A stretch of 64,000 bases of DNA from the NCBI RefSeq assembly GCF_040807025.1, contig NC_090967.1:3718001-3782000 (forward strand). Reading direction: 5' to 3'. The translations under genes were made by a program, and so were the position numbers. Within the stretch, counting starts at the first letter, position 1, and every line of letters begins with the position of its first letter. Origin of the DNA: Struthio camelus (lineage: Eukaryota > Chordata > Aves > Struthioniformes > Struthionidae). This document shows positions 1 through 45,472 of this stretch, piece after piece. The notes under the pieces are model-generated. The model was given only the letters and a program-made list of their open reading frames with translations. It was not told the DNA's origin and made no database searches.

Positions 1-342
1 GCCCCACGCCTGCCTCTCTCTCCCATGCCTGGACAGGAATCATGCAGAGTGTGGGCCCACGCTGCAACAGGGCCTCGTAATCACAGCACCACGGGTTTGT
101 GGTCTGCCAGTGCTCTTCTGCAAAGAGGTTGTCGCTGGACTCTCTTCCCTACAGGCTGGTTTAGGCACGGTTGGCAGTGTCGTCAGCCCAGTCTGACTCA
201 CTCGCTCGCCAGCATGGCCACGGGGCTCACAGACGTGTCCCCCAGGCTCTCGCTTTCCCCACTCGCCTTCCTCAAATTTGTCACAGTGCCCCTTGACCAC
301 CTCCTGCTGCCGCCCAGCTAACGCATTTCTCTCTCCTTCCAG
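1..342 (+). other. MUC16 intron sequence upstream of first visible exon
   Basis: No SEA-like exon can be read here. In the downstream array a D exon precedes each linker exon by only 118 bp, but no D exon homologue lies at that distance upstream of 343. The stretch is therefore taken as the 3' end of a longer intron, with a pyrimidine-rich acceptor ending at 342. Short open frames on both strands have no recognisable content. Confidence 0.5.
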
Positions 343-1134
343 AGTACACCGAGCCCCCGCTGCTGCCAAGTGAGTATCTCCAGGAGCTGGTGGTAGTGGG
401 AGAACGGGCAATGGCCTGGGCCCCTTGACGCACGGTTTCCTGCCCATAGGCTTTTGCCTGCTCCACGGGGCCTGCCGGCAGGCGGGCAGCTCTAGCAATG
501 GCCCACTCTGACGTTGCTCTCCTTTCCGTAGCAGCCAGGCCAACTACAACTCCAGCCACCGCCCTGGAACGGTTCACCCTCAACTTCACCCTCACCAGTC
601 TCGCCCACACCCAAGACTTGGCAACTCCCCACTCCAGGGAATTCAACGAGACGCAAAAAGCCTTAACCTCCTTGGTAAGCGCAGGCCTGCCTGCCCTCGC
701 TCCCTCCTTCTCAGCCACCTCGCGTTCCCCCGGGCGCGTGCTGCTCTCGAGGAACGCCAGCTCTTTGGCGCACGATGACGAGCTCCCCCAACCCTCTCTT
801 TGGCAGCTCGACCCCATCCTTGGCAACAGCAGCCTGGGCCCCGCTTACGCAGCATGTGAAGTGACAGCGTTCAGGTAAGGGCGCCGGAGACACCGCCGAG
901 GCTCCAGCCCCTTTCCATTGGCACCGGGCACCCCAAACTAACCCCAAGTTTCCTGTGCCAGGCCTGAAGCGCGTGGCAGCGGCAGCGTGGTAGACGCCGT
1001 CTGCACCTACCGGCACGACTCCTCCGCCCCGCCGTTGGACAGGGTGGGCCTTTACCACCAAGTGAGCAACAAGACCAAAGGCATCACGCAGCTGGGCCCC
1101 TACAGCCTGGACAAGGACAGCCTCTACGTCAACG
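343..1134 (+). CDS. MUC16: MUC16 SEA unit 1 (exons A0, B0, C0, D1)
   Basis: Exons are 343-369 (linker, Y-T-E-P-P-L-L-P), 532-674, 807-874 and 962-1134. Exon B0 carries the L-E-R-F-T-L-N-F-T strand with an N-glycosylation sequon. C0 carries the conserved Cys (A-A-C-E-V) and D1 its partner Cys (D-A-V-C-T-Y). B0 and C0 differ clearly from the near-identical units downstream. D1 is a hybrid: its first 30 bases are unique, while from about 993 to its end it is identical to D2, D3 and D4. The C0-D1 intron is only 87 bp, against 391 bp in units 2-4. The start of D1 encodes G-S-G-S-V-V-D, which resembles a SEA autocleavage sequence. Confidence 0.92.
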
Positions 1135-4100
1135 GTAAGCACCTAGGCCTCCCCACCTCCTCTGCTTTCCTGCAGCAGCCTTGCGTAGCAGCCTTTCCCA
1201 GTCCCCGGGCCCCGGTGCCAGCTCCAGCTCATGACTCGCTCTCTCTTTGCAGGTTACAACGAACAGCCAGTCCTGCCATGTGAGTAGCTCTGAGGGGAAG
1301 GCTGGCGTCCAAAGGCCGCGGGTTTCTCGCGGGTCTCCCTGCCTGGCTGAGGCAGCCGGGGGCCAAGGCTGGTGATGCCTGGGGGAAGCGGGGAGCACGC
1401 TGACCTTCCCCCTCGAGAGCAGCGCCAGGAAGGAGCGCGGGCTGGTGCGAGACCTTGGCGTTTCTCCACCCAAAGCCTTCACGCCCTGGCTCTTGCACCT
1501 TTTCATTCCGCGTCTGTGCTCCTTGCAGCTGCCAGCCCCACACAGACAACAGTTCCCGCCCTTGAGCGCTTCACCATCAACTTCACCATCACCAATCTCC
1601 CCTACAATTCCGACCTGGCAATTCCTCACTCCGCAAAGCTCAACACTACCCAGAGAGTCATGGCCACCTTGGTAAGCAGCCCACCGCTCTGCCACGGCCA
1701 GGGGGCCTGCGGGCCTCGGGGGGCGGCAGGTGTGCAGGAGCAGGGCAGTGCCGTGCCTTAATTGTGAATCCCCTCCCCTTTGCAGCTCAAGCAGCTTCTG
1801 AAGGAAGCCAGCATCGGCCCTGCTTTCCTCGGATGCGAGCCAGCAGCTTTCAGGTACGGGGCCAGGCCAGCCCATTCCCTTGGCGGGTCCCAGGACCAGG
1901 CAGCCTGGCATGCTCCGGCCTGGTCCGCCCCCTCGCCCTCCGGAGGCAGGGCCTTGCCCCTGCTGCCCTCCCATCTCGGGGCTTCCCCCTGCTGCTCGCC
2001 CTCCCACCCGTGGAGGGTCTTGGCACGGCCCCTAGACGGCTCTCGCACCTTGCGTGCCCTGACCCCATGGGAACGACAGCAGGGCCAGGCTGCAGCCAGG
2101 AGAGCAGCGGCAAGCGTCCACGCGCAGGCGGGGACTGCCGAGCAGGCGTTGCCGCAAGCACACGGCGGAGGAAGCCCTACTGGCCGACCTCGCAACCAGA
2201 GGGTGCACGAAAGAGGAGCTCAGGCATCGCCTTGTGTTTTTCAGGCCAGTGAGGCAAGGGGACAACACCGGGGTGGACGCCGTCTGCACCTACCGGCACG
2301 ACTCCTCCGCCCCGCCGTTGGACAGGGTGGGCCTTTACCACCAAGTGAGCAACAAGACCAAAGGCATCACGCAGCTGGGCCCCTACAGCCTGGACAAGGA
2401 CAGCCTCTACGTCAACGGTAAGCACCTAGGCCTCCCCACCTCCTCTGCTTTCCTGCAGCAGCCTTGCGTAGCAGCCTTTCCCAGTCCCCGGGCCCCGGTG
2501 CCAGCTCCAGCTCATGACTCACTCTCTCTTTGCAGGTTACAACGAACAGCCAGTCCTGCCATGTGAGTAGCTCTGAGGGGAAGGCTGGCGTCCAAAGGCC
2601 GCGGGTTTCTCGCGGGTCTCCCTGCCTGGCTGAGGCAGCCGGGGGCCAAGGCTGGTGATGCCTGGGGGAAGCGGGGAGCACGCTGACCTTCCCCCTCGAG
2701 AGCAGCGCCAGGAAGGAGCGCGGGCTGGTGCGAGACCTTGGCGTTTCTCCACCCAAAGCCTTCACGCCCTGGCTCTTGCACCTTTTCATTCCGCGTCTGT
2801 GCTCCTTGCAGCTGCCAGCCCCACACAGACAACAGTTCCCGCCCTTGAGCGCTTCACCATCAACTTCACCATCACCAATCTCCCCTACAATTCCGACCTG
2901 GCAATTCCTCACTCCGCAAAGCTCAACACTACCCAGAGAGTCATGGCCACCTTGGTAAGCAGCCCACCGCTCTGCCACGGCCAGGGGGCCTGCGGGCCTC
3001 GGGGGGCGGCAGGTGTGCAGGAGCAGGGCAGTGCCGTGCCTTAATTGTGAATCCCCTCCCCTTTGCAGCTCAAGCAGCTTCTGAAGGAAGCCAGCATCGG
3101 CCCTGCTTTCCTCGGATGCGAGCCAGCAGCTTTCAGGTACGGGGCCAGGCCAGCCCATTCCCTTGGCGGGTCCCAGGACCAGGCAGCCTGGCATGCTCCG
3201 GCCTGGTCCGCCCCCTCGCCCTCCGGAGGCAGGGCCTTGCCCCTGCTGCCCTCCCATCTCGGGGCTTCCCCCTGCTGCTCGCCCTCCCACCCGTGGAGGG
3301 TCTTGGCACGGCCCCTAGACGGCTCTCGCACCTTGCGTGCCCTGACCCCATGGGAACGACAGCAGGGCCAGGCTGCAGCCAGGAGAGCAGCGGCAAGCGT
3401 CCACGCGCAGGTGGGGACTGCCGAGCAGGCGTTGCCGCAAGCACACGGCGGAGGAAGCCCTACTGGCCGACCTCGCAACCAGAGGGTGCACGAAAGAGGA
3501 GCTCAGGCATCGCCTTGTGTTTTTCAGGCCAGTGAGGCAAGGGGACAACACCGGGGTGGACGCCGTCTGCACCTACCGGCACGACTCCTCCGCCCCGCCG
3601 TTGGACAGGGTGGGCCTTTACCACCAAGTGAGCAACAAGACCAAAGGCATCACGCAGCTGGGCCCCTACAGCCTGGACAAGGACAGCCTCTACGTCAACG
3701 GTAAGCACCTAGGCCTCCCCACCTCCTCTGCTTTCCTGCAGCAGCCTTGCGTAGCAGCCTTTCCCAGTCCCCGGGCCCCGGTGCCAGCTCCAGCTCATGA
3801 CTCGCTCTCTCTTTGCAGGTTACAACGAACAGCCAGTCCTGCCATGTGAGTAGCTCTGAGGGGAAGGCCGGCGTCCAAAGGCCGCGGGTTTCTCGCGGGT
3901 CTCCCTGCCTGGCTGAGGCAGCCGGGGGCCAAGGCTGGTGATGCCTGGGGGAAGCGGGGAGCACGCTGACCTTCCCCCTCGAGAGCAGCGCCAGGAAGGA
4001 GCGCGGGCTGGTGCGAGACCTTGGCGTTTCTCCACCCAAAGCCTTCACGCCCTGGCTCTTGCACCTTTTCATTCCGCGTCTGTGCTCCTTGCAGCTGCCA

Positions 4101-7100
4101 GCCCCACACAGACAACAGTTCCCGCCCTTGAGCGCTTCACCATCAACTTCACCATCACCAATCTCCCCTACAATTCCGACCTGGCAATTCCTCACTCCGC
4201 AAAGCTCAACACTACCCAGAGAGTCATGGCCACCTTGGTAAGCAGCCCACCGCTCTGCCACGGCCAGGGGGCCTGCGGGCCTCGGGGGGCGGCAGGTGTG
4301 CAGGAGCAGGGCAGTGCCGTGCCTTAATTGTGAATCCCCTCCCCTTTGCAGCTCAAGCAGCTTCTGAAGGAAGCCAGCATCGGCCCTGCTTTCCTCGGAT
4401 GCGAGCCAGCAGCTTTCAGGTACGGGGCCAGGCCAGCCCATTCCCTTGGCGGGTCCCAGGACCAGGCAGCCTGGCATGCTCCGGCCTGGTCCGCCCCCTC
4501 GCCCTCCGGAGGCAGGGCCTTGCCCCTGCTGCCCTCCCATCTCGGGGCTTCCCCCTGCTGCTCGCCCTCCCACCCGTGGAGGGTCTTGGCACGGCCCCTA
4601 GACGGCTCTCGCACCTTGCGTGCCCTGACCCCATGGGAACGACAGCAGGGCCAGGCTGCAGCCAGGAGAGCAGCGGCAAGCGTCCACGCGCAGGCGGGGA
4701 CTGCCGAGCAGGCGTTGCCGCAAGCACACGGCGGAGGAAGCCCTACTGGCCGACCTCGCAACCAGAGGGTGCACGAAAGAGGAGCTCAGGCATCGCCTTG
4801 TGTTTTTCAGGCCAGTGAGGCAAGGGGACAACACCGGGGTGGACGCCGTCTGCACCTACCGGCACGACTCCTCCGCCCCGCCGTTGGACAGGGTGGGCCT
4901 TTACCACCAAGTGAGCAACAAGACCAAAGGCATCACGCAGCTGGGCCCCTACAGCCTGGACAAGGACAGCCTCTACGTCAACGGTGACTTTTTTTTCCCC
5001 TCTCTTATTTTGTATGATATGCAATTTCCCTTTCTCCATTTATTTTTATTTTTCCACTTATATTAAATCATTGATGTGGGGAATTTTCTCATGTAATGAG
5101 ATTTAATACTTGTGTATTCTCCACCGTATAGACTGCAGTTTTTTCTTTTATTAAGTAAATACAGAAGAGTCATTTTTCAATTATATTGAATACTCTTCAA
5201 TATTGTTGTTAGCCTTTTACTCACTGTAATGTAATTTAGTATAATTAATATTAATGAGGTCATCTCTGATTATTTTATTCAATTTTATTACACGTTCAGT
5301 GAACCTCTTCTCTCTTTACTTTTTGTTTCTACATCTTGTTCTTTGCTTTCCAGTTCTTTTTTTTTTTTTTTTTTTTTTTAAATCTTTAACAAATGTGTTT
5401 TTGCATTTCAGAATACAGTGAAGCATATCGTGTGCCAGGTAAATGTCTTTAGATACTATTTTACACTTTCATTAGAAACAGAATTTTTATCTGCAGGAAA
5501 TTATCAGGAAAATCCTACAGATACCATAATATATCATAACTTGTGTGGTGGTGACTGTAAATAGTATATTTTCCAAGAAAAGGATAATATAGTTATAGTA
5601 ACAGAAATTTTGGTATGATTACATCATCCATTGACTAATTAATGAAACTTTAGTTATTGATTTTCTTGTCACTTGCTTTTTTTTCCTCCAGGTTTGATTC
5701 CTGCTACAGCTGCATCTCCAGCAACTGAGCAATTCACAATGAATTTCACCATAACTAATCTTCCATACTCTAGTAGTCTCCGAAATCCCAATTCTGCCAA
5801 ATTTAGTGCTACAGGAAGAGTTTTGATTGCTCTGGTAAGTTTGATGAATTCCTGTTTTTCTTTGATATTGTGCTTATGTAAGCATAGTTAACTTGTAATT
5901 TTTATTCTTCAGCTGGATCAACTGTTCAAAATGACCAGTATTCACTCTGTGTATACAGGATGCAAAATGATGGCATTCAGGTAAACATAATCATTTAGAT
6001 TTGGAAAATGCATATTTTCATGCTATACTATGTTATGCAAATGGATCTTAATCACTTAATTCATCACTTTTTTTAATTCTGAGGCTGCACATAACTATGA
6101 GAAGTCATTACATTTCTTTACAGATGGGTCTTTATAAATGTACTTTACTTCATGCTTTTATCTGAAAAGTCAAATGCTTTTTCAGCATTTTGACGACACA
6201 GTTGAGTTAATCATCATAGGGGGGAAAAATACCTTTTCTGGTCTACCTGGCAATCTGATTGTGCTACGGAAACAAAACCCACCAATACATATCATGAATA
6301 TTGAATTCTGGAACCGAACAGGATGTATTCTAATTTCTCTAGAGCTACACAAAAAAGTGAGGATACTGGAGTAGATGCTGTCTGTACCTACAAGAGAGAT
6401 CCTGCTGCTCCCCAGTTTGACCGAGTGAGGGTTTACCATGAAGTGAGCAACAAGACCAATGGCATCACCAACTTAGGAATATACAAGCTGGACCAGGAAA
6501 GCCTGTATATCAATGGTAAAGTGTTGATTCCCATATGCTGTGGGGATATTCATACGGCTAATAATCTATAGTTGCCTAGTGATTAAAACACAGCAGTGAC
6601 TTCTGTGCAGATGAATAGCATCTTAAATGCATATGTACTTGGGCTCAAAGCTATGTACTTGATAATTCACAAAGCTCCATCATCTACACAAGTTCTCCTC
6701 TGAAAGCAGCACTTAAATCTTCATAGCAGTAAAGGCAACTAAGTTCAGCACCATTTAGGAACCTCACCTTGTCATTTACAATGGAGTTGTCTTCAAAATA
6801 ACACTGCCCTGCACTGTGTAAATAGTTTAAGTGACTGCTCAGAAACAGCACATCTTTTGTCCTCCCGTGGAATCTTTCATCTGTACAAATATCTCTGAGT
6901 CAGCAGCCTAACTCGTTATTTCCTCTCTGTTTCCAGATTACCATGAAGCCCATCTCTTGCCTTGTAAGTACTTTAAGTAATTAAAAAGGCATGATGCCTA
7001 AAGTGTCAGTACAAGAGATACACAGATGAATGCCTGATTGGAGAGCTTCCCTTTCTTAGCTTTTTCATGGAGCTATAAGTAAAAATAAGGTGCAAACATT

Positions 7101-10100
7101 TAACAGTGAGAAGAATCAGCTACGAAGCACAGTTGTTTATTTACAGGCTTCATTCAAATGTTTCATGAGGCATTATTTCTTCCTGGAAAACAGACTTTAG
7201 TCAAATCAAGGCCTCTGCAGAGGAGTAACTGAATAAAATCCTATGCCCTGCATTACAGAGGAGGTCAGAGGAGATGGTATGAGGAGACCCATTTGCAGAA
7301 ATACATAGCTACACCTGCAGAACGCCAGAGGGTAACTAGTGTTGACATTTCAGTCTCTTCCAAAAGCAACTTCACAAGTAGAAATGGTCAGAGGTTCAAA
7401 GACCTACATGGAGTATCAAGGCTAGTGTGGTTGGAGCACAGATGGAGTTAACTTCGACTCCTCATCTGAAATGGTCAGGTACTTGTTTACAGCCTGGTCT
7501 GCTAGGACTGGCCTTCTATATGAATATGAATGAGCTACAGATTCCTCACCTGCTCTACAACTACATGCCCCACGCTGCTGCTGGCATCATCATTCCCATT
7601 CCATACTGTATTCAGTATAGTGTACATCCATTCCAGCAGAAAAGAACTGTTGAATCTGCTAAAGACAGAGATTAAAAAATAGTTTGCTTTCTACTCACAA
7701 CAAATTTTGTGCTTTTTTTGCAGCAGCATCTCCAGCTCTTCCTCTTGCAAGAACAGAGCGTTTCACAGTGAACTTCACAATAATCAATCTGCTTTACAGA
7801 CCAGAACTAGGAAACCCAAATTCTAAAAAATTCAATGCTACAAAAAACACTCTGACATATTTGGTGAGCATCAGTCAGGTTCTTCCTGTGGCTGTTTGTT
7901 TATTTTTATTTTATTTTCACTGACTTGATTTCTTTTTTTTTTTGACAGCTTGACCACATGCTCAAGAACAGCAGCATTAACTCTACTTACACTGGATGTA
8001 CAGTGGTGGCACTAAGGTAAGAGGCACGTCCTCAAAATGTTTTTTGTTATAAAAGACAATGGCAATTCAAATTTTGGCTGACAATAGGATTATACAGAGA
8101 TCTTTCCTTTGCATATAGTTCCTTCCTGCTTCTATTGTCTCCTAAGTTAGTAGATCCTGTTAAGCTCTTGAGAGTGCAGGAAAAAAATTAGACCTCATAT
8201 ATGATCCCACATGATGGAGGAGAGGGTTAATACATAACTTCTGATTTTACTTGCATTAATTTCACACCAATTTTGCACTAAATAAAAAGAGTAATATGAC
8301 TAATTTTATATGCAGTTCAGTTAGATCATAAGAACACTGTTCTAATTGTATAAAACAGAATGAATACTGCATTTTTAAAATTTGAGGCATTATTTCATTA
8401 AATAATGGTGTTTTACAGTATTTTAACAAGAAATCCAATTCCATGGTAGTTACTGCACAAGCAAATTCAAACAAATGCATGTAAGTGCCATTCAGGCTGT
8501 AAGCAAGCACGTAACTTTTCAGATCTGTGAAGAACAGAGATGACACTGGCGTGGATGCAGTCTGCACATACAGAGCCAACACAACCGCTACTAAATTTGA
8601 CCGAGTCATGGTTTATTGTGAGCTCAGCAGGATGACAGCCAGCTGCACTGAGCTAGGACCCTACAGGCTGGATGCAGCCAGCTTCTATGTTAACGGTAAG
8701 TAGCTGAGTTGATTTGACTGCTGATTTGATACTAGCTGGATGGAGAAACTGAATAAATACCTAACCACAGAAACAGTAGTACCTGCATGGAGGGTGAAAG
8801 GAAATGCCAGCCCAAACAGAAGAGCCACTGTCACTAACAGTTTTCGCACCTTGATTTTCTTTTGAACTAAATAACTGTGCCAAATATAATACATCATGTG
8901 TCATATAATAATATATCACAGGGTGCTCTCCAGAAAAGATCAGGCTTAGCCTCCCAAGACACAATGTATCCCTCTGGAGAGGAACAGCACTAGAACTGGA
9001 CACTCCTTGACAAAAGGGATACTTAAATTGGATTTAGGCAATGGAAGTTTCCTTTTGACTCCTCTGAGGAAGGGAGAATTCTGTGTACTCCTCTATGAAA
9101 AGCAGCAGTTTGCCAACAATATACATTAGCGTAGGTGTTTAATATGCATTCACGCCTAGACAGTCATCAAATCAGTCTTCTTTAATAAATGTTTACACAG
9201 GGTATCTCAGGCAAAAGACATTCAAATTATGTACTCTACTGTGTACAAGAGCTTATGAATTCTAAGCCAGTTTCTCAGATACTGTCCCATTTCTTCCCCT
9301 CCCAGGTTATAATGAACCACAGCATGGACAATGTAAGTACCTTTAAATACCAATCGAAAGGGCAAGAGGATTTTGTTAGTTAGCAATAGCTTAAGACAAA
9401 GGTTGGATTAACCAACTAAAAGCACTACAACACCCATAAAGCAGTGTTATGAGAATCTGGGAGCCCTGCTAGGGTACCAAGCTGCTATGATACAGAGGTC
9501 AACTAGAACACCCAAGAATTTTTCTTCTAGTTTTTCCTCTAGGGATGATGTTCATAACTTATCTTTTCAAGCAATAATTTACCTCAATCATTACAGCTGT
9601 TAATCAAAGTACACAACTTCTGTCACCATCAATAAGGAACTTCACACTGAACTTCACTATAACCAACCTCCAGTTCACTGCAGACCTAGTGATGCCAAAT
9701 TCCAAAAAATTCAAGTCAACAGAAAAAGTCATGCACTATTACGTAAGTCTGGAAGAATCACACCCTGCCTGAGCACAGTTCCTTTGATATCTCTAATGTC
9801 TTACCCTTTTGTGACGTTTTGCTTACATATTTTTGCTCTAGGTTGACCCTCTACTCCAGAAAAGCAGCATTGGCCCTGCTTACATTGGCTGCAATGGGAT
9901 GGCATTCAGGTAAGAGTCACATCTGGGAAAGGTTTGGGTTACCCATTTCTTAAACATGTTGTTTCCCATTTCTCGGTCTATAGAGTGGTAATATTCAACA
10001 CATTAATGCAATGCCATTCTTTGCTATGTCTTTGGTCATATATTAAAAGTTAAGACAGACTTCTCAATAGCCGGCTAAAATATATTGAAACAAATGGCCC

Positions 10101-13100
10101 ATTTCTCAGGTCAGTGAAGAACAGAGATGACACAAGAGTAGATGCCATCTGCAGCTACAGAGATGAGCCTTCAGATCCCACGTTCAACAGAGTGACTGTT
10201 TACCATGAGCTGAGCAACATGACAAATGGCATCACCAAGCTGGGACACTACAACCTTAACAGCCAGAGCCTCTACGTTAATGGTAATGAGACCATTATTG
10301 GCCATTGGCCTCATGAGAATGAGGAGGATTAAATACTCTCCAAAACTGATAACAAAAAGCAGGGGGCAAGTTGTCAAAATCACTAAATTAACACAGTTAA
10401 GAATCAAGTTATCTTTATCCTGAAGTTAGTAATAAAAAACATGAACATGTTTAGCCCTGCTGAGCTTGGTCAGTAGGAAAGAAAAAATATTCTTGGAACA
10501 TTTTCTTAATGATTGTCCCTTTGTTTTCCAGATTATAATGAACCATACACTCTCTCATGTAAGTATTATTTAAGAACAGACACATGGTAAAGCTACTCAA
10601 AGACATAAATTAATTTTTTTTTCCAAATTTGGCAATGCCCATAACAGATCTTGTAATCATGTTATTTATAAGCTTCAGTTTATCTGCTCCAGGTGTAGAG
10701 GGAAAAATAGTAATAATGTTGTATCTTATAAAGGTTCTGCACTTATTTTGTCTGTATAATTTTTATTCTTGCTTACAGTTATGAAGCCATCCACCACCCA
10801 AAGCCCAGGGCCAACAACAGAGCAGTTTACACTGAACTTCACTATAACCAACCTCAGGTTCACGACAGACCTAGCGACACCAAATTCTGCTAAATTCAAT
10901 TCTACAGAGAAAATAATGCAAAGTTATGTAAGTTAAAGTCATGTTGTTCTTCGCTGAATTCACCCAGTACTTTGCTTTTCCCTTTCTCATAAGGGAATGT
11001 ACTCACAAATGCTGTTCTTTCTTTATCAGATTGATCGCCTGCTTCAAAGGAGCAGCACTGGCCCTGATTTCACTGGCTGCAAAGTGATAGCATTCAGGTG
11101 AGAGCAGTATAGCTAGGAGATGAACTTAACTTTAGCAAATTAATTTATGGATGTTTGACTGACAATAACACATAGTCCTTTTCCATTTTCAGGATAACAG
11201 CACGTTATAAAAGGGCATAGAAGCTTTATTGTATGGTTTTTATCTTATAAAGCTTTTTTCCCTACAACATTATCCTATCTGAGCAAATAACTTCTGCAGT
11301 TTACCTCTGAATACTATGGATAGAATTTTTTTTTAATCACATATCAGAAAGTAACTAACAGAACTTTCATGACATTTGATTCCTCAGGTCAGTGAGGAAT
11401 AGGGATAACACAGGAGTAGACACCATCTGCAACTATGGAAGTGGCTCTCAAGTGCCCAAATTTGACCGAGCTAAGGTTTACCAAGAGCTAAGGAGCATGA
11501 CCAGTGGCTTTACCAAATTAGGAGTCTATAACCTGGACAACAACAGCCTCTATATCAATGGTAAATGCATGATTTTCTTATTCCTCCAGGCACTGGAGGG
11601 AGTTGGGACCTCCTTAGACTTTAGGTACTTTAGTTATTAATAGCGTAACCTTAAGGGAAAGGTGGCCCCACTGAAGTTTACTGACAACTTATGCACATAA
11701 GACAAAACATATGCTTCTAAGTTTATTGTCATATAGACATTTTGAAGATTTTAATTTCTACCTTACATTTAAGAGTGACTTAATTTTAGTCTTGTCTCAG
11801 TCTCTGAGTTGCATATGAACATTGCACCTGATATCTGTCCTACCTGTATGTGTTTCTAAGAAACGGCACATATTTTCCTCATTGCAGTCTTCACTATTAT
11901 AACACTTCCTTCTACTTAATTAGTAGGTAGTTTGTTTAATGGATTGACACCTACAGGAACTGATTTTGGTGATTCATTCCCGAGTCATCTATTTCATTAT
12001 TCCCTCTTCTCTTTCATTCGTGAAATGTATCATTCTCTTATGTAATCATTCTCTCGCATTTCCTTTCCAGGTTACAATGGACCACCTGAGAGAGCACGTA
12101 AGTGTTTTGTCACTCATTCCAGTGAAAGCTATCAAAGGAGTGGTGCACTCCAAAAATGAGACGGGAACAGATTCTTCAGAGTGGCCTTGAAATTTTGCTA
12201 GGATTGCAAATGTCTTTGAAAGTGAGGATGGCTTTTTGTATGGTGAGATCATAATCCTTCTTCCCTTTGATTATAGCTCTGAGCTCAACTACTGCACCAA
12301 GCCCAACATCCAGGCATTTCACACTTAATTTCACTTTGACCAACCTCCCATACACTGCAGATCTGGATGTACCAAGCACTTACAAGTTCATTTCCACAGA
12401 GAAAATTATCAAACATTATGTAAGTCTGCCTCTGGTTTTGTTCATTTTGTGTGTTATGCTGATGACCTTACTCTGTCTGCATTAAATTCAGGACATGCTT
12501 TTAAGTTTTCTCAACTTTACTCTGTTTCTTTCTCCTCCCAACAGCTTGACCCTCTTTTTAAGAGAGGCAGCATAAGCCCTGTCTACACAGGATGTAGAGT
12601 GATGAGATTTAGGTAAGAGTCCTGAAAGAAAGTTTCCCTTGTCTGCTTTTATACACCCTGGCCTGGAAGTTGTTGTAGTTCTTTCGAAGCCAAAAGACTG
12701 AGGCCTTGTCTATCTGCCTTGCCTTCTCTAGATACAATCAGCATCGTAGCTTAAAAAGGTTAAAATTTACCCTCTGCATCTTCCTAAAAATTCACAATTT
12801 CCTTGCTGGAAGTCATTTTCACATGTAAATGCTCCTGCCGCAGTTCTTGAATATCTCCTCAAAGATGTAGGAGATTGATTGCGCTGATAGGTTTCAATGT
12901 TTATCCTTCCCATTCATAAGTTACATAGGATGTTCTGTTAAGGACATTGCTGATGCTTACAATGCGTCTAACATTTTTGCATAGGTCTGTGAAAGACAGG
13001 GATGACACTGGTGTAGATGCTGTCTGCAGCTACAAAAACAACATCAGCATTGCCAGCTTTGACAGAGAAAAGGTTTATCATGAGCTGAGCACCATGACAA

Positions 13101-16100
13101 AGGGTGTCACCAAGCTAGGGCACTACAGCTTGGAGAAGAACAGCCTGTATGTCAATGGTAAGCATCTGTAAGCAGCATCAAGATACGACTTGAGTCACTT
13201 GGAGTGGAAGAACAAGGAGTGATCTTCATCAGGGTTTGAGTGCTAACGAATTTCTACTTTGGTTTATTGGGATTCCACAGGTTTTGGCATTATGACATAA
13301 TCAATCCAGCACATTGCTGCCATTCTGGAAGGAGTGGTGTCCCTTAAATTGCACAAATTCCTGGATAATTGCATTTTGATATTCATATAAACTAAACAAG
13401 GATCTAGGCGTATTGCTTTTGTGGTGTGTGTGTATAGAGCTGATGTTAAAAAAAAAAAAAAAAATTCAACCTTTTTTTATTTAGGTTTCCACCTCACAGC
13501 TATCACCAGAAAGCCTGTCTTAACTGAAGCTCCAGCCATTTTGGGCTATAATTTCAGCTTTAGAATAATCAATGAAAATCTAACTAATTCAGACTCCCAG
13601 TCTCCAGAATACAAAGCAGCAGTGGAAAGCATCAGTAACAAGGTAAGGAGCTACAGTTCAGAAGTCACCATATCTACACCAAATGACCAGTGACTGCATA
13701 AATCTCTGCCACCTCAGAGGTGAGCACAGGTTTAATTTGTTGTAGATAGTCCAGTGCAGGTCCTCTTCAGCACCAATCCACTAACATAACAATCTGCTAA
13801 AGCCCTAGCTAGGGAAGTTCCCCCTCCCCCCCCCCAAGTGAAGCCATAATGAAGCCTCCTTCAGGTGAAACCTGAGTTGAGTCTGTTTTGCCCATGGAAT
13901 ATGGATCAAGATGACAGCTGTCAGACAGCAGACAAGTGTGCTTTAATAATAACTACTCAGATAAGATAAGGGCTGCCAAGCTGAAAGTCAGACTCCATCA
14001 CTAGAAGGCATATTTTGAAATAAAAGCCATCTCATATGAGAACCTGATTAGCAGAGAAAAATCTGTTGTTGCTCCAAAGTTAGAGGTCCTCCTGCTGCCT
14101 GAAGCATTCCACCATGAGGTCCAGAACTTACATATTTAACGTAACATTTTTATTTCAGATGAACCAACTATATCATCAGAGCAATCTGCAAGATCACTTC
14201 CTGAACTGCAGTGTCACAAGGCTAAGGTTTGTAATACAATTTGATTTTGAATTTTGTTTTCTATGCCCTATCCAAGTCATTCATAGGCTTCCTGGAGCTC
14301 ATGAGTCTGAGTATGTTCTGACTTAGTGGGGATTGACCATGGTCAGTGCTGCACAGCTAACATGGAATATGTTGGAGGGTCTCAAATACGCTTTATTAAT
14401 AAAACTTTTCCTCAGTCACAGTCAGGATTCTTGTAAGGATCTGGGGGAACTGTGGCACTCTATCAGGCCTCTTTGAATATCCCTGTAATTACTGATTGCC
14501 ATCAGCAATCTTACCAGAGGAATAAAGACCGAATGGTGATCATGCAACCTCTGCCTTCCTCCTCCCTTCCTCCAGACTTGGACTCTGCTGGGTTTTAAAA
14601 TGACTTTGGGCATATTTGTAGTGTCCTGCTTCAGTTGGGAAGGAATTTGGACAAGGGACCCTCACACAAGGCTAAAATTTTTGAAGAAAGTCCTGATCCT
14701 TCAAGCTATACATGCAGCATAATCATAACTTAAGTTTGCATGGAGAAGAGGTAGTGGCACTTCATTTGCCATACCTGGCCTAAGGAGAAGCTCCAGAGCA
14801 GTCTATTCCACATCTCTCAGTAGCACCACGTTAGATTAAAACACTCCTTAACACTGAGAATAGCAGGAGCCCCTAGGAAACTGTCCCATATGGAGGCCTC
14901 CTGATCATCAGCTAGCCCATTTGTTTCAGAGCCTCTGTTTCTCTCTCCACAGGCCTGGATCCATAGTGGTTGACTGCAAGTGTTTCTTCCAGCCAGAGCC
15001 CAGCATCAACAGGGCTGCGGTTGAAAGGGCTTTTCAGGATGGGATTTCACATGCGACTGGGCTGCGGCTGGGAAGCAGTTACCAGCTGCAAGGATTCTCA
15101 GTAGACAGTACGTAAAGCTCATAGAAGATCATGAATGTCCCATTTCTACTCAGATTAACCCACTTTGTCATAGCATGCTCAGAATTACCCACTTCCTGAT
15201 CTGTTGGGGGGGGAAGGAAACACTATGTTCCCCCACACTGAATCACTGAACTTAAGCCAGAGTTGGGCCAGTCCTTTGCCAAATTCAGTATGGCTCAGTC
15301 CAGCCAGTGGGGTTATTATATGTTAATATATTATTAACATTATTAAATATATTATTTAAGGGGTTATTATATGTTAATTAAGGCAAAGAAGTGATAACTC
15401 CTCATCAGAATTTCTAAAAGCCTGTTTCTCTCCAAGAGTTTGCTTTTTTTCCCCCCAAGATATACGTATTCCCAAAGCACTGGCCTGGGGAGTTGCTTAA
15501 GGACTGAGCTTTCAAAGGGGTATATTGGGTCTAGGGTGTCCGATCCCAGTGTGACCCATGTTCTCTTAATTTCCTAGGACCTCTCTGGATTTTTCCCAGC
15601 TGGAAGTCCACCAAGCAACACTGATCTGCATAAGAGCCTCCATGTTTCTCTTTGCTATAATTTATTTATATTTTTCCCCTCTATCTCCAGGCTTAGAACT
15701 AGCAATTGAGGCAACAACTCACAGAACACCCCTCCAATCTGAGAAAGAAAGCTTCAGATTAAACTTCAGTATCACCAACCTTCACTACTCTCCAGCACTG
15801 CAGGACACCAAGTCACAGTTGTCCAAAGTGAACAAGCAGAAGATTGAGAAGGAGGTAAAGCTAATAACAGTAGTTTAGACTGAATCCTCTTGTCCAAATT
15901 AAAGCTGTATTAGATTCATTCATTTTGCTTGTTTTGTTTCTTCTCGTCAGCTTGACGTATTCCGAACTAGCAGCCTGAAGGACTACTTTGTTGGCTGTAC
16001 TGTTGAGAGCTTTGGGTATGTCCTGCCTTATAGGCTGTTATTTCAGAGCTGGTTTTCTTTAGTCCCAACAGAACATTTAGCAGAAATGGCACTCGGAACT

Positions 16101-18826
16101 GCAGCATGGTGTTTATGCCTCAGTGACAACCTGTATTCACTCAGTAACACATAGGAGGCACCTTAATTCATTCTCAGTCAGTTTTGCCTTTACCACAGAT
16201 CATTTCTGTCCAAATAAGTTTTTTTTCCTCTCCATGCTAGCAGAGCTATTTTCAAATACAAGCAGCTCCAAAATAAAACAAATAAACTAATTATGTCACT
16301 TAACTTATTCAAACAAGTGAAGACTCAACTCAAACAGATTGGGAAAACAATCATAACTGGCCTGCCTGCTTTTTTGTGTCTTCATCTCCTTGGAGGAACA
16401 AGGAAAGCTGACTGACTTATCTCAGAAATGCCATGCCCAAGATTTAGTGGGTGGATTTCACAATGCCACGCAGCAGTTCCTTCTGTCTAGTGTAAACTGT
16501 ACAAAACTGATCCTATGCTAATAAAGCATTGCTCAGACATCCGCAAACCTGAGCCCAGTGCCTGAGTCCTCTCCTGATGCCTCTCCACTTTATCTGCTCT
16601 TCTATCTAGTTCTGCGCTAGCTTTCTCTTGTCCCATAACAGCAGCTCTGGTCTTCATCCTCCAGGCCTGTCCTTGGGAAAGCTTACACAAGTGTTGCCTC
16701 CATCTGCAAATTCACACTGCACCCCTCCTCGAGGGCTTTACAAAGGGAAGTAGTATATGAGGAGCTGAAACACTTGACGCAAGGGTTCACCAAGCTGGGC
16801 CCCAGCTACCAGCTGGACGAGCATAGTTTGGGTGTTGATGGTGAGTACTGCTGAGTTGATTCAACTTTTGTTAGTTTTGTTTTCATCACATCAAGTGTCC
16901 TGTTCCCCACCTGTCCTACCCTTTCTTTTCCAGGTTACTCTCCACTCAAAACAGCTGAGCAGGAAAGATCTGGTAAGTGCTTTTGTGGAAGCGTTCACCC
17001 CAAAGCTCCTGAATACTTGTTGAGCTACGCTAAATTAGCATAACATGCCTTGAAAAGGTGACTGGACCACTGTCAAGAGCACAAAAGTTTAGGACGCCTG
17101 GGAGACAGGCAGCAAACAGCAGGGACCAGAGCCAGCGAGCCTGGGGAAACCCAAAGTGAAGGGCAGGCAAGAGCAATGGAATTTGGGAAGCTCTAGTACC
17201 AATAAGTTTCAATAACTTCAGTATTTACAAGAGCAAACAAAAAAAACAAAAAAATGATACAAACAGCGCTGAGTACTGCCACAAGCCCAGAACTAACATT
17301 AAACAAAAACAAATCGCAAGTACTCCCAAGCACTGCTTTTCCATGCACTGGGAACACCCTCACAAGCAACTACAGCTTTTTTCCCCAACACCCTTAACGC
17401 TGTCCCCTCCCTGAAAGAGACCTAGCCAGGAGCTGAGACACCTTTGTACTCTCTGAACAGCCTCAAAACCATCCAAGGACCCTAAAGCTAACTGCAATGG
17501 TATTTAGTGTTGTGGATCCTTGCACCCTCACTCTGTTCCACCAAGGCTTCTGCACATCCCTCCCATCTTCACACTGCTGGGGCACATGTGCCTGCAGCCT
17601 CCTTTCCAGTAATTTCACCTCACCCGTGCTGTATAGCACTTTTGAACTTTGACAGGGTGAAAATTGTGTCCCATGTGCAATAGCTACAAGTCAAAAGACT
17701 GATGTGCCTTGATTTTGTTTTTTGCAGAGCTTCCATTCTGGGCAATTATCCTTATCTGCCTCTTCACACTGCTTGGTTTTATCCTCCTACTCCTGTTATG
17801 CTTCCTGGTAAGTGGCCCCTTTGCTGTCACACCTCTTGCTTTTGACTCCTGCAACACCCAGCAGTCCAAAGAGTTGCAGAAAGGGCACTCAGAGACACAC
17901 TCAGAGACCCTACAAGGAATCCAGGTGGGAGCAGTATATCACATGCAACATCAAACGCTGTGCCAAATCCTCTCTCAGTTACTGCCACCCCTTTCAAGGG
18001 CTTGTGCACAGGAGGATAGGGAAGAGTATTTAGCCCACTAAGCAGATTTTTAGGGAAGGAGGCAGTGGATCCTGAGTGAGATCTAGTCCTCTGGAGAGGG
18101 GAAAATATGAAAGTAGAGGAGATGAGGCAAACCCCGAGAGCAGAAGCAGGTTGAATTAGAGGACTTCCTACAAAACTCCTCTTAAACCTTTTCCCTGCAC
18201 AAATTTTTGCAGAATGCCCAGTTTGGAAGAAATATTTTTAAGCAACCCACAGATGACAAGAGAATTGAGAATTTTTTGTTCGGTTCTGATAGCATGCAGA
18301 CTGTAGCAGCCCTGCAGGGCCAGACCCAAGCTGTATCTCATTGGAGATGGCAGAGCAGATCTTTGTCTGGTGCATATTTGCTGGGGGAAAAGTATTTTAT
18401 TAGCACTGTTTCAGCAGTAGCTGTATTTGCTTGACACCAGATAGAACAGAATGGCTAAATCCATACAGAACATGGATTGTCTTTGGAGGTTCAAGAAGAA
18501 AAATTACAGTCAGTAAGATTAGGAGAGAAAAACCTCAGATTCAAAACCAGCAGTTGTACTATTGACTGCCTATGCAGCCTTAGGCAAGTGTCTTCTTTAC
18601 CGCTGAGTTATCCCATCTGTCAAATGGAGGGCATCTCTCCACCCAGTAAGGCGTTCTAAGACCCTCTAATGAAAAGCAAAGTGCATACTTGGTGTTTTGC
18701 AATTAATATTGTTCCCTTTTCCACCAGATTGTCTTTTGCCTAAGAAGAAAGTCAAACCTGTACCAGGTTCAACAGAGTATGTACGGGGTGTATTTCCCAC
18801 ATCTGAACACAAGAAAAGTGCATTGA
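343..18826 (+). CDS. MUC16: MUC16 (mucin-16/CA125), 3' part: 11 SEA domains, transmembrane helix, tail; 5' end outside window
   Basis: Forty-five exons with consistent GT/AG borders and intact phase run from 343 to the TGA at 18824-18826. The product is the C-terminal part of a membrane-tethered epithelial mucin: eleven SEA domains with N-F-T or N-F-S sequons, 8-9 residue linkers, a membrane-proximal peptide, one transmembrane helix and a 32-residue tail. Known MUC16 traits visible here are serial SEA domains, a Cys in exon C paired with a Cys in exon D, repeat endings like S-L-Y-V-N-G-Y-N-E, an L-P-F-W-A start to the membrane helix, and Y-x-V-Q-Q in the tail. SEA units are about 137 residues here, against 156 recalled for human, mainly because linkers are short. 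The N-terminal Ser/Thr-rich mucin domain must lie upstream of position 1. Exons in the first 5 kb are GC-rich and later ones AT-rich. Family assignment is very secure; exact exon borders are read by eye. Confidence 0.95.
1253..2417 (+). CDS. MUC16: MUC16 SEA unit 2 (first full copy of 1283-bp tandem repeat)
   Basis: Exons are 1253-1279, 1529-1671, 1786-1853 and 2245-2417. They total 411 bp, or 137 codons, so the unit is frame-neutral. The linker encodes G-Y-N-E-Q-P-V-L-P. Exon B encodes the strand-helix start with N-F-T and N-T-T sequons. Exon C ends A-A-F-R after the G-C-E motif. Exon D carries V-D-A-V-C-T-Y and ends S-L-Y-V-N-G. All introns are short (118, 249, 114 and 391 bp, counting the one before the linker). 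Confidence 0.94.
2536..3700 (+). CDS. MUC16: MUC16 SEA unit 3 (second tandem copy)
   Basis: Exons are 2536-2562, 2812-2954, 3069-3136 and 3528-3700, each exactly 1283 bp from its counterpart in unit 2. The encoded protein is identical to unit 2. The only differences noticed against copies 1 and 3 are intronic single bases (A at 2521 and T at 3412). Identity of introns as well as exons points to very recent duplication or gene conversion, not selection on the protein alone. Confidence 0.94.
3819..4983 (+). CDS. MUC16: MUC16 SEA unit 4 (third tandem copy)
   Basis: Exons are 3819-3845, 4095-4237, 4352-4419 and 4811-4983, again at exactly 1283 bp spacing. The coding sequence is the same as in units 2 and 3; one intronic difference was seen (C at 3869). 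The final donor differs: the exon ends ...AACG and the intron begins gtgact in place of gtaagc. Right after it the sequence changes to T-rich DNA with no similarity to the other copies. The open frame continues correctly into the linker exon at 5412. Confidence 0.92.
5412..6515 (+). CDS. MUC16: MUC16 SEA unit 5 (first AT-rich unit)
   Basis: Exons are 5412-5438 (linker, Y-S-E-A-Y-R-V-P), 5692-5834, 5913-5980 and 6343-6515. Exon sizes (27, 143, 68, 173) match units 2-4 exactly, and phases are the same. The protein keeps E-Q-F-T-M-N-F-T, the Cys in Y-T-G-C-K and the Cys in D-A-V-C-T-Y, but is much diverged from units 2-4. Codons end mostly in A or T, in contrast to the upstream array. The D exon acceptor is tctctag at 6336-6342. 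Confidence 0.93.
6937..8695 (+). CDS. MUC16: MUC16 SEA unit 6, with two extra cysteines
   Basis: Exons are 6937-6963 (Y-H-E-A-H-L-L-P), 7724-7863 (140 bp, one codon short), 7949-8016 and 8523-8695. The linker-B intron is 760 bp. The standard Cys pair is present (Y-T-G-C-T and D-A-V-C-T-Y). The D exon also has two additional cysteines in V-Y-C-E-L-S-R-M-T-A-S-C (codons at 8617-8619 and 8644-8646), where other units have H/Q and a Gly-Ile/Phe stretch. Reading frame and splice sites are intact. Confidence 0.92.
9306..10282 (+). CDS. MUC16: MUC16 SEA unit 7
   Basis: Exons are 9306-9332 (Y-N-E-P-Q-H-G-Q), 9597-9742 (146 bp), 9842-9909 and 10110-10282. B encodes R-N-F-T-L-N-F-T with two overlapping sequon contexts. 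C encodes S-S-I-G-P-A-Y-I-G-C. D encodes D-T-R-V-D-A-I-C-S-Y and ends S-L-Y-V-N-G. Phases fit the four-exon plan. Introns are 264, 99 and 200 bp. Confidence 0.93.
10532..11560 (+). CDS. MUC16: MUC16 SEA unit 8
   Basis: Exons are 10532-10558 (Y-N-E-P-Y-T-L-S), 10779-10927 (149 bp, two extra codons in the Ser/Thr/Pro-rich linker part), 11030-11097 and 11388-11560. Conserved elements are E-Q-F-T-L-N-F-T, F-T-G-C-K, D-T-I-C-N-Y and S-L-Y-I-N-G. All borders are GT/AG and the frame is open throughout. Confidence 0.93.
12071..13157 (+). CDS. MUC16: MUC16 SEA unit 9
   Basis: Exons are 12071-12097 (Y-N-G-P-P-E-R-A), 12277-12419, 12545-12612 and 12985-13157. B encodes R-H-F-T-L-N-F-T. C has the Cys in Y-T-G-C-R. 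D has V-D-A-V-C-S-Y and ends S-L-Y-V-N-G. This is the last unit with a separate 27-bp linker exon. The 510-bp intron before the linker and the 327-bp intron before the next SEA exon show no other coding signal. Confidence 0.93.
13485..15107 (+). CDS. MUC16: MUC16 SEA unit 10 (penultimate), with canonical G-S-I-V-V cleavage motif
   Basis: Exons are 13485-13642 (158 bp, linker and B fused into one exon), 14159-14226 and 14953-15107. The protein runs from G-Y-N-F-S-F-R-I through N-L-T-N-S-D to Y-Q-L-Q-G-F-S-V-D. Its layout matches the atypical penultimate SEA domain of mammalian MUC16 (Y-K-A-A-V near its helix, L-G-S-S-Y-Q-L near its end). The third exon opens R-P-G-S-I-V-V-D. G-S-(I/V)-V-V is the known SEA autoproteolysis consensus, with cleavage between Gly and Ser. 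The donors after the second and third exons (gtttgt, gtacgt) are weaker than average. Confidence 0.9.
15691..16840 (+). CDS. MUC16: MUC16 SEA unit 11 (membrane-proximal)
   Basis: Exons are 15691-15854 (164 bp, no separate linker exon), 15951-16015 (65 bp, one codon short) and 16665-16840 (176 bp). B encodes S-F-R-L-N-F-S-I-T-N-L, C encodes Y-F-V-G-C-T-V, and D encodes S-V-A-S-I-C-K-F and ends L-G-V-D-G. Order and spacing match the last extracellular SEA domain of MUC16. The loop that holds the G-S cleavage site in unit 10 reads A-Y-T-S-V-A-S here, so self-cleavage is not predicted from the motif. Confidence 0.92.
16934..16972 (+). CDS. MUC16: MUC16 membrane-proximal stem exon
   Basis: This 39-bp exon encodes Y-S-P-L-K-T-A-E-Q-E-R-S, joined in phase 1 on both sides. 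It replaces the linker exon after the last SEA domain and leads straight into the transmembrane exon. The Y-S-P start corresponds to the Y-S-P stem of mammalian MUC16. Acceptor ttttccag at 16926-16933; donor gtaagt at 16973. Confidence 0.88.
17728..17807 (+). CDS. MUC16: MUC16 transmembrane exon
   Basis: An 80-bp exon encodes E-L-P-F-W-A-I-I-L-I followed by an uninterrupted run of Leu, Ile, Phe, Cys and Gly, about 24 hydrophobic residues in total. The L-P-F-W-A-(I/V)-I-L-I opening is a strong match to the MUC16 membrane helix. It joins the stem exon in phase 1 and the tail exon in phase 0. Confidence 0.93.
18535..18635 (+). repeat. MIR-like SINE remnant in last MUC16 intron
   Basis: The order of short blocks, T-T-A-G-G-C-A-A-G-T-G-T-C-T-T then C-C-C-A-T-C-T-G-T-C-A-A-A-T-G-G, matches the central part of amniote MIR/CORE SINEs (gain of 'gggcaagt...cttc' and 'ccatctgtaaaatgg' motifs) in plus orientation. 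Strongly decayed, so borders are approximate. Confidence 0.6.
18728..18826 (+). CDS. MUC16: MUC16 cytoplasmic tail exon and stop
   Basis: The exon encodes 32 residues and a TGA. It begins I-V-F-C-L-R-R-K, a basic stop-transfer stretch, then L-Y-Q-V-Q-Q and M-Y-G-V-Y-F-P-H-L. Basic cluster, Y-x-V-Q-Q and a following tyrosine pair mirror the short mammalian tail, where tyrosine and basic residues contact signalling and ERM proteins (family knowledge). The preceding intron is 920 bp and contains a MIR remnant. Confidence 0.92.
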   Translation: MVFCLRRKSNLYQVQQSMYGVYFPHLNTRKVH

Positions 18827-19385
18827 CATAACAGATGAAGTCTGCTTTCACAGACCAGTTCCATCCACAGATGAAGGAAAGGTGTTTACAACTGCTAGGA
18901 AAATGTTTCTTCTTTAATAAGTTATATTTAGCCTTTTCTCTTATCTTGATGCAAGTCTGCACTATTACAACAACTACTTTCATAGTATGGGAAACTGCCA
19001 ACGCAGATTTTGGGAAAAATATTTTTTGAAGCACTGTAGTATTTTATATAAATATTACACCACCAGCAAAATGAAGACTGCCAGGAACTGCAGTTTTCAG
19101 GGCTGTTCAGTGTTAATGTCAGTTTTCTGAAAAGGGCTTAATTAAGCTAGTTTACAGATTTGCAGGACTGACTACCGTAAATTAAAAACAAGACAGATCA
19201 CTTAGACTTTACTCTTTTTCCTGGTTTCTCTAAAATATCTATTTTAAGCTGATGAAAACATTTTATATTTAATATGTCAAAAGATTATTTAAAGATACAT
19301 TGTTAACTATGAGTGTGATACAACACCCTGTCGTCTTTTAAGATCAATACCGATTTCAGATGAATAAATGTTAGATTTATTGCCA
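18827..19385 (+). other. MUC16: MUC16 3' untranslated region
   Basis: AT-rich non-coding sequence from the stop codon to just past the AATAAA at 19363-19368. The end is an estimate (10-25 bp after the hexamer). No other hexamer was noticed earlier in this stretch. Confidence 0.7.
19363..19368 (+). terminator. Poly(A) signal of MUC16
   Basis: Canonical AATAAA located 537 bp after the MUC16 stop codon, the first such hexamer seen downstream on this strand. Confidence 0.75.
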
Positions 19386-20329
19386 TGAAACGGATTCCTT
19401 TTGTTTCCGTATATCAGCACTTCATCCCCAAACAGGAAAGATTTCTGCCCTACAAAGATCTTATATTTTACTCCTTAGTGGTCTCATTGAGACCTCACTC
19501 CTACAGTGCAGGGTCTGATATCACTTATAATTACTTATTACATCAGGACCTTTTCTCTGTCCCTCTGAACCATGCCGTACTGGACAGATGTGCCCAAAAC
19601 CTCAGTGCCAGGCCTGCAGCGTGCCCTGATTTTTGGCAGAGCACACTGGGTGCTCTTGCAGAAAATTCACACTAGTGTCACAAGGAAACTGCTGGATCTT
19701 GAGCCTGTATTGCCACATGTCCCTGGGAACCAAAAATCTTTTGGAAAGTCTGTCTCCAAATACAATGCCAAAATTTTCTTGAGGAAAACACGCAGAAAGG
19801 CTCACCCCTGCTCCCTCCCTAAGAGCATTTGGGGATCTTAATGCAGCGTTTCAGCACAGGAGATGGTGCTAATCTCTAGGTAATTACTTGATATTATCAT
19901 TAGACAAACTCTCCACTCTGCTGAAAGGGAAAGCACCAGAACTAATGCAACCATGACAAGTCATTAATCCTTCCACTGCAGGCCATGTTTCCATGCAAAC
20001 TGCCTTTTTGCTTTCAAAGCAAAACTGATCAATGGCAGGTTGGCCTCATTCACCTCCCAGGTTCGGTTCCTGAGCATGGACTAGAACATCCTATTTGGAA
20101 GGATTAGAAACTTACTTGCTTGATCAAAGGTTTACAAATGCCCAATATTATGTCAGCAACATCAGCTGAAAAAGTTTTCATAGCTGCTTGCAACAGACCT
20201 CTGTTGGTTTCCATGCTGCTGAGCAAGCCCTGGCTACGACATTGATGCAGGTACAGAAATGCTTTGAATAGAAAGGACTTCTTGGCTCAGCCTTTGAGGG
20301 GAGGCTCTCAGAACCTGAATGACTGAGCA

Positions 20330-23400: not shown

Positions 23401-24424
23401 CAGCTTTCCACCTCACTGCCAAAAAAAGCATCCGATACCAGCAAGCATTGTATTGTGGACTTACTGAACTTAATTGGGACCCAGGGGTCTCCCTGCCCAC
23501 TCTCACTAACCCATCCTCCTCCAGCTGCTCCAGCCCCAGACCCCAGCCCCAGCCAAGGGACCAGGAAAGTATCCCTAATGTGCATTTTGAGGCTGCACTG
23601 AGAACAGCCTCACATACATCACAATGCAAAGGCCACCCATCATCCCCTGATCCCACTGACATGCTTACGTCCACAGCAACGTTCCTGTGTCTATCACTAT
23701 GATCTGGTGTTTGGACTGTGCCAGATTAAATAGCAGGGGCCACAATGAACAAAGCCGCCAGCAGGCTGACAGGCGCATCCCCTGGGGCAGGCACTTTGCC
23801 TGGGTTTGGACTCTCTGAATGACTTTTTCTGACCTTGGGAAAACCAGTCCCTTCCTCCCCTGCTCTTGAGCATTTTTGGGAAGGCACCATCTGGCCCAGA
23901 GAAGATACAGGCTCTTACCCATCCACAGAGCCAGGAGGGTTTTACAAGGCAGAGACTTTTAAAAATTATCAGATTCTATTTGTGAAGAGGAACAGCGAGT
24001 TTGGATATTTAATCTGGGTCTCCCCACAGCAATACGAACCTGTGCCTTTTGGGGCAGCCCAGTGCCGATCCTCAACTCTCAATACCCGCATTAGGTGCCT
24101 GAACTGCCCCCACATATCCAGCCTTCAGAGGAGCAATGCTAAAACACTGCTCCTTGGGCTTGAAACACTCAAAACTGGGCACTGTGAAAGACCCTCCAGA
24201 GAGGACTCTTAACTAGATCCCTTTTGCTTTGAGGTAGATTAATTCAAATTCTGGCTGCTCCCTCCCCCTACATTTTTTAAAATCCTAACAAAGTGTAAAA
24301 TTAGCTAGAATAGGAAAGAGCGAAAAAAGCTCCCGAGGTCACAGGTGAGAGATAGCCCAAGCTCAAGAGAGCAACCGCAGTAGCGCAGGGGGTCTGGGTC
24401 TGCTGTGACCAGTTCAGCCCTGGG

Positions 24425-24432
24425 TGATGTCA
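24425..24432 (+). promoter_or_regulatory. CRE-like octamer upstream of ACTL9
   Basis: TGATGTCA differs from the palindromic cAMP response element TGACGTCA at one base. It lies 210 bp before the ACTL9 ATG. Testis genes are often driven by CREM at such sites, so the position fits, but an isolated octamer is weak evidence. Confidence 0.25.
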
Positions 24433-24641
24433 CAGTTCCCTCTACGACAACACAAGCTGTCAAACACAAGGTCCAAACCCACTCCTCGGAAAGCCACCGC
24501 CAATCTCACTGCTGCATTGCCACCCGTCCTTGCAGACGGCCCAAGGACATTGCCACCTTGGCCAGAGTCCAGCTGGGAACAGTGCTTCCAGACTTAGCAA
24601 GCCAAAGAGCAGGGTGTCTGGGGGCAAGAAGTCACTCTCCA

Positions 24642-45422: not shown

Positions 45423-45472
45423 GGTCGCCAATGCACCTTGCGTTCTGCCAGTGGGAACCTCGGATGGCAGAA
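45423..45472 (-). other. NFILZ: NFILZ 5' UTR part of coding exon, with splice acceptor
   Basis: On the minus strand ttttatattttag ends just before 45472, followed by non-coding sequence to the ATG. NFIL3 itself has a non-coding first exon and a single coding exon, so the same arrangement is likely here. Confidence 0.6.

Follow-up and report, generated by a model that had tools for sequence, protein, structure and literature searches.

What keeps a block of repeated SEA-domain exons nearly identical, introns included, and how far does the process responsible extend? The question is raised by the first 5 kb of the window (64 kb of the ostrich genome, C26:3718001-3782000, on a contig of 8.03 Mb), which we compared with the rest of the assembly (1.45 Gb searched, 262 contigs). 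Positions 993-4985 (+) comprise 3.11 copies of a 1283-bp period, termed Y, and contain units Y29, Y30 and Y31. The original prediction had named this period over this span, and identity at lag 1283 across it bears both out; it had also counted exactly three copies, of which the repeat stands and the exact number does not. Each unit has 411 coding bases (137 codons) in four exons, D (27), A (143), B (68) and C (173), and is in frame as had been proposed, the exon limits being placed by GT/AG signals and by homology. Y29 (1253-2417, +) has its exons at 1253-1279 (D), 1529-1671 (A), 1786-1853 (B) and 2245-2417 (C), and Y30 (2536-3700, +) and Y31 (3819-4983, +) repeat them with shifts of 1283 and 2566 bases. 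Upstream lies a unit of a second type, X (unit 28 of 31; 532-1134, +), with exons A at 532-674, B at 807-874 and C at 962-1134; the exon D leading into it is placed at 343-369 (+) by inferred splice sites. Three sites vary among the Y copies, namely 1238/2521/3804 (G/A/G), 1303/2586/3869 (T/T/C) and 2129/3412/4695 (C/T/C). The lag comparison and the inferred splice map confirm that these are the only differences and that all three are intronic, and each presents CpG versus TpG/CpA alternatives. Near-identity across 4 kb that includes introns is well past chance level, and the introns are as alike as the exons, which supports the earlier suggestion of recent or ongoing homogenisation.

The assignment of the gene to MUC16, made in the original prediction, is also supported. 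The protein of the repeat unit is a SEA domain (Pfam PF01390, E 3.2e-22), and three of its four matches among solved structures are named Mucin-16 (best 7sa9_A, E 5.2e-38). The SEA units are of MUC16 type and are preceded by a long N-terminal mucin exon, a Thr/Ser/Pro-rich, stop-free open frame of 13,298 codons (C26:3644865-3684758, about 39.8 kb) made up of 261-bp repeats in higher-order periods of 522, 783 and 1305 bp. Six diverged SEA units follow on the same strand (+), 3' of the near-identical copies: U5 (5692-6515, AT-rich, GC3 0.40), U6 (7724-8695, GC3 0.45), U7 (9597-10282, GC3 0.55), U8 (10779-11560, GC3 0.51), U9 (12277-13157, GC3 0.52) and the membrane-proximal U10 (15747-16839), which is the most diverged and gives partial matches only. 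Beyond them, a hydropathy scan picks out a strongly hydrophobic candidate transmembrane segment at 17745-17804 (+), which may resemble that of human MUC16. Rfam gave no matches within the 64-kb window.

It is the scale of the repeat that was misjudged. The original prediction saw a three-copy event among diverged neighbours; with 100 kb added upstream of the window and the exons mapped, positions 1-4985 (+) turn out to be the 3' end of a 37.8-kb array whose higher-order unit is a dimer (C26:3685200-3722985; 37,786 bp, GC 0.639), within which the window happens to start at 3718001. In the single assembly from which all array copy numbers come, it holds 31 units, 17 Y and 14 X, arranged as 14 Y-X dimers of about 2447 bp followed by Y-Y-Y. 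The downstream neighbours are indeed much diverged, but this is only partly true of the first unit in the window, an X that is identical to Y over 152 bp and is one of 14 near-identical X copies. Among the matches listed for the whole genome, a 420-bp intron probe has all of its 17 within C26:3685216-3722266, and all 88 SEA protein matches lie within C26:3685252-3731162. Mean pairwise differences are 0.0017 for the Y core, 0.0021 for the X core, 0.0003 for the Y-to-X spacer and 0.0028 for the spacer leading from X or Y to Y. Variation across the whole array amounts to 18 substitution sites and two indels, and a single variant, in the second Y, changes the protein (as translated).

X and Y share 63% of nucleotides and 48% of amino acids in exons A, B and the start of C, and comparison of their introns gave no convincing likeness; to judge from their sequences, they are old paralogues. 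A block of 152 bp (993-1144, +), consisting of the 142-bp end of exon C and 10 bp of intron, is identical in both, and the final 142 bases of exon C are exactly the same in 30 of the 31 units. A mosaic of this kind is the trace expected from exchange between X and Y, and we propose the block as the site of unequal exchange: a crossover within it gives Y followed by Y, in frame, which would explain the terminal Y-Y-Y run. Copies that are alike in their introns, together with two long-diverged unit types sharing an exchanged block, point to a tandem array that probably evolves in concert. Likeness between copies shows no steady fall with distance, and no significant repetition of neighbouring dimer types emerged from a test fixed in advance (P 0.27). 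One dimer pair, c-d, recurs at dimers 3-4, 6-7 and 8-9 (P 0.0027, the pair having been picked after looking), which looks like block duplication. The original prediction further expected the mucin to vary in length between individuals. Six human sources that were sequenced each have 19 MUC16 SEA repeats (PMC10829539), and the human mucin-exon repeat, which is not the SEA array, has only three length alleles among 296 haplotypes (PMC13345508), so variation of the SEA array between individuals cannot be assumed.

The edges of the array coincide closely with steps in base composition. On the right, the homology edge is at 4985 and the maximum-likelihood GC changepoint for positions 1-20000 of the window falls after 4984, 1 bp away (4984-4985); GC drops here from about 65% to about 30%, the 500 bases on the array side having 0.676 and the 500 beyond the edge 0.268. 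On the left, homology starts at 3685200 by inspection or 3685216 by BLAST, and the changepoint shifts with the stretch taken for analysis (3685231 or 3685399), so that the two are 31 bp apart (narrower stretch, inspected edge) or 183 bp apart; GC in the 500 bases outside is 0.346. All 37 of the 1-kb windows in the array have GC between 0.611 and 0.665, and the 85 background 1-kb windows (mucin exon and array excluded) have a mean of 0.43 and a maximum of 0.572. Introns and third codon positions are both affected: array introns have GC 0.60-0.70 and GC3 is 0.78-0.80, against 0.26-0.41 for introns and 0.40-0.55 for GC3 in U5-U9 and the measured spacers. Within the window, the observed/expected ratio of CpG is 0.56 for the array portion and 0.16 for 4986-20000. 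The abrupt change at 4984/4985 had been missed in the first reading.

Similar edges occur in two other domain families, SRCR and VWD, which were chosen before any composition had been seen, the prediction for VWD being written down ahead. Three near-identical SRCR arrays were picked out on C7, with 150 of 373 candidates scored: S1 (5576381-5623890, 32 units), S2 (5552936-5561605, six units) and S3 (5496500-5505861, six units). All have regular spacing, sampled interiors with GC 0.65-0.73 and AT-rich flanks, and their homology edges lie 8 and 0 bp (S1), 32 and 164 bp (S2) and 3 and 128 bp (S3) from the GC changepoint. A VWD array on C9 has an interior GC of 0.593. For this family we examined the left edge of the array and both ends of a detached block. 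At the left edge, 711 bp separate the changepoint from the start of homology (C9:18967092-18967803) as judged against a 5-kb sample, and this stretch may be homologous to parts of the array outside the sample. The detached block (C9:19015031-19016581, 1551 bp) is 99.5% identical to a unit of the array. Its GC is 0.628, that of the two flanks 0.384 and 0.380, and its ends lie 5 and 9 bp from a changepoint. In the five arrays taken together (three families, three contigs), 10 of 11 edges lie 0-183 bp from a changepoint and one at 711 bp, and eight of the 11 fall within the 3-log-unit interval of the changepoint. Interior GC of the three SRCR arrays and the VWD array is 0.59-0.73.

Variants inside these GC-rich arrays lean towards A/T. 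If the minor state is taken as derived, which is an assumption, the MUC16 array has 15 S>W (G or C to A or T) and three W>S variants (p 0.0075), or 14 and three without a site at which the two states stand at 8:6 (p 0.013). CpG transitions make up 11 of the 18 sites and the remainder divide 4:3, so the excess in the MUC16 array is largely CpG decay. Nine units of S1 give nine S>W, no W>S and three neither (p 0.0039; gapped and multi-state columns omitted). The implied mutational GC balance is 0.27 (95% 0.08-0.52), near the values of the flanks, and a scaled bias B of about 1.6 (0.5-3.0) would be needed to hold GC at 0.64. Something therefore opposes mutation inside the arrays. Unbiased homogenisation leaves the balance of base composition unchanged, as theory has established, and so either a bias or a GC-rich founder is required.

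GC enrichment accompanies homogenisation in the five arrays but not in the mucin exon of the same gene. The latter has 152 units of 261 bp with a mean best identity of 0.985, yet its GC3 is 0.507 and shows no rise with homogeneity across the 152 units, which argues that homogenisation alone is insufficient. The exon was considered as a second GC-rich case and failed, since its overall GC step (3644889) is mainly a matter of codon position 2 (0.82), with GC3 at 0.51. Whether an array gains GC may depend on the length of its units, on whether they contain introns or on the way in which they are exchanged. Diverged SRCR exons at the C7 locus have an inter-exon GC of 0.405 and GC3 of 0.43-0.76. 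Inter-exon GC is 0.455 in an SRCR cluster on C34, despite one identical exon pair. Conversely, an SRCR cluster on C16 (14501001-14510500) is GC-rich (0.596, GC3 0.72-0.98) although its exons are just 63-71% identical, and is a counter-case because it lacks homogenised copies. A near-identical dispersed SRCR copy on C32 (GC 0.58, CpG 0.25, 200 N) is uninformative. Apart from the mucin exon and the C16 and C34 clusters, which are counter-cases, coding and non-coding sites are enriched alike, and the enrichment is confined to DNA that presumably recombines.

We think it fairly probable that unequal exchange combined with GC-biased gene conversion explains the 31-unit MUC16 array, the likeness of its copies, its composition and its edges. 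Exchange and conversion are the likely cause of the likeness; that a GC bias in conversion causes the observed composition is somewhat less secure but on balance favoured, and GC-biased gene conversion is the best candidate for the force that opposes mutation. SEA cassettes, each of four exons with their introns and 411 coding bases, would multiply and shrink by unequal exchange, and exchange and gene conversion would hold the copies alike. Exchange in the shared 152-bp end of exon C would convert Y-X dimers to Y-Y-Y in frame. Conversion favouring G/C over A/T would raise the GC of the array, introns included, as far as the homology edge, and the GC-rich zone would stop there because homology-driven repair ends there, so that flanks outside homology remain near mutational balance. 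The units might instead have been GC-rich before they were amplified, with no biased conversion, and rearrangement might have sharpened the edges by removing transitional DNA, through a deletion on the left and an exon-C exchange on the right. The left-edge intron is in fact rearranged, with a short internal gap relative to the other copies, and the first unit lacks exon D; decay after amplification would also give an S>W excess, and a mucin exon that is not GC-rich and a C16 cluster that is GC-rich without homogenisation both suit such a founder. We nevertheless regard it as unlikely, as five arrays, from three families and three contigs, have homology edges that meet GC steps, and the same accident would be needed repeatedly. 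Moreover, X and Y are both GC-rich, yet over much of their exons each resembles some AT-rich units at least as closely as it resembles the other, and their introns share no detectable likeness. A GC-rich donor locus elsewhere, or any second SEA source, finds no place among the matches listed for the genome: the 88 protein matches (C26:3685252-3731162) and the 17 probe matches are all in the MUC16 region.

Two further explanations seem to us much weaker than a GC-rich founder. Near-identical arrays are easily mis-counted, this one is known from a single assembly and its composition changes abruptly, so the copies might have been multiplied, or unlike sequences joined at 4985, during assembly. 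An artefact is very improbable, however, as the 164-kb stretch contains no N and the copies can be told apart by variants and indels, and a join through shared sequence would presumably need more overlap than the few bases available there. Across 4985 the order of exons and the reading phase are unbroken and comparable edges are found at other loci, and a chimeric join at this position was set aside on these grounds. Selection on composition, through codon use or through RNA or chromatin function, could account for the high GC3 of the array without recombination, but the introns match third codon positions in GC, for which reason codon selection was discarded, and the change follows the homology edge, which on the left is intronic; we consider this the most improbable of the explanations.

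Human MUC16 (CA125) resembles the ostrich gene in its tandem SEA units, of which repeats 1-17 are similar and 18-19 more variable, and in its layout, in which diverged membrane-proximal units come after a homogenised block (PMC10829539). The 19 repeats given in that account compare with 31 near-identical and six diverged units in the ostrich, of 137 codons each; a dimeric higher-order unit and, perhaps, the GC step at the edge further set the ostrich array apart. LPA kringle IV-2 likewise repeats a domain cassette of several exons, introns included, in frame and inside a single gene; its 5.5-kb unit is present in one to more than 40 copies, and variants common to several copies have been attributed to duplication or conversion (PMC4378929). 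Its population copy number is known, and a GC step is not described in the available part of that source (PMC4378929).

We regard the MUC16 array as a case of ordinary concerted evolution whose composition edge is unusually sharp, recurs in other arrays and fits GC-biased conversion. Concerted evolution with high GC is familiar from histones and Hsp70, and GC-biased conversion has reportedly been found in rDNA, by Escobar in 2011. High GC also accompanies concerted evolution in the KRTAP genes, as summarised in PMC4180150. All of these are separate genes or rDNA, whereas the arrays described here are exon-intron cassettes within single genes, with edges resolved at the scale of bases. Mammalian tandem gene arrays also shift in composition as they grow, but in the opposite direction, towards AT and with less recombination (PMC10463633). 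In the zebra finch, conversion is reported to favour G/C at 59%, and recombination to be enriched at CpG islands (PMC12047795). A literature search of limited open-access scope found no description of intragenic arrays whose homology edges carry GC steps.

We would generalise from these arrays tentatively, the case for and against being nearly even: exon-intron cassette arrays in this genome may become GC islands, in which biased repair brings introns and third positions to 0.6-0.7 up to a homology edge of near-base resolution, and arrays of short period, like that of the 261-bp mucin exon, may be homogenised by another, unbiased route, e.g., slippage. If so, the edge of an array records the reach of conversion, and its GC gauges how long the array has been exchanging. 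The usual evidence for biased conversion is a broad correlation between GC and recombination. Where a homology edge within one intron or exon end separates AT-rich from GC-rich DNA, regional confounders drop out, and such edges would be a natural experiment, repeatable at every array of a genome. In arrays of this kind, codon and amino-acid composition would also shift with no selection involved, and lengths of mucin and scavenger-receptor arrays taken from single assemblies call for read support.

The rest of the window contains a single-exon-looking, actin-like ORF of 483 aa at 24405-25856 (+; PF00022, E 8e-108), which is presumably ACTL9-like, and a bZIP ORF of 305 aa with an NFIL3-type domain at 44514-45431 (-; PF07716, PF06529). 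An exact 25-bp tandem duplication of 2.2 copies lies at 54938-54991.
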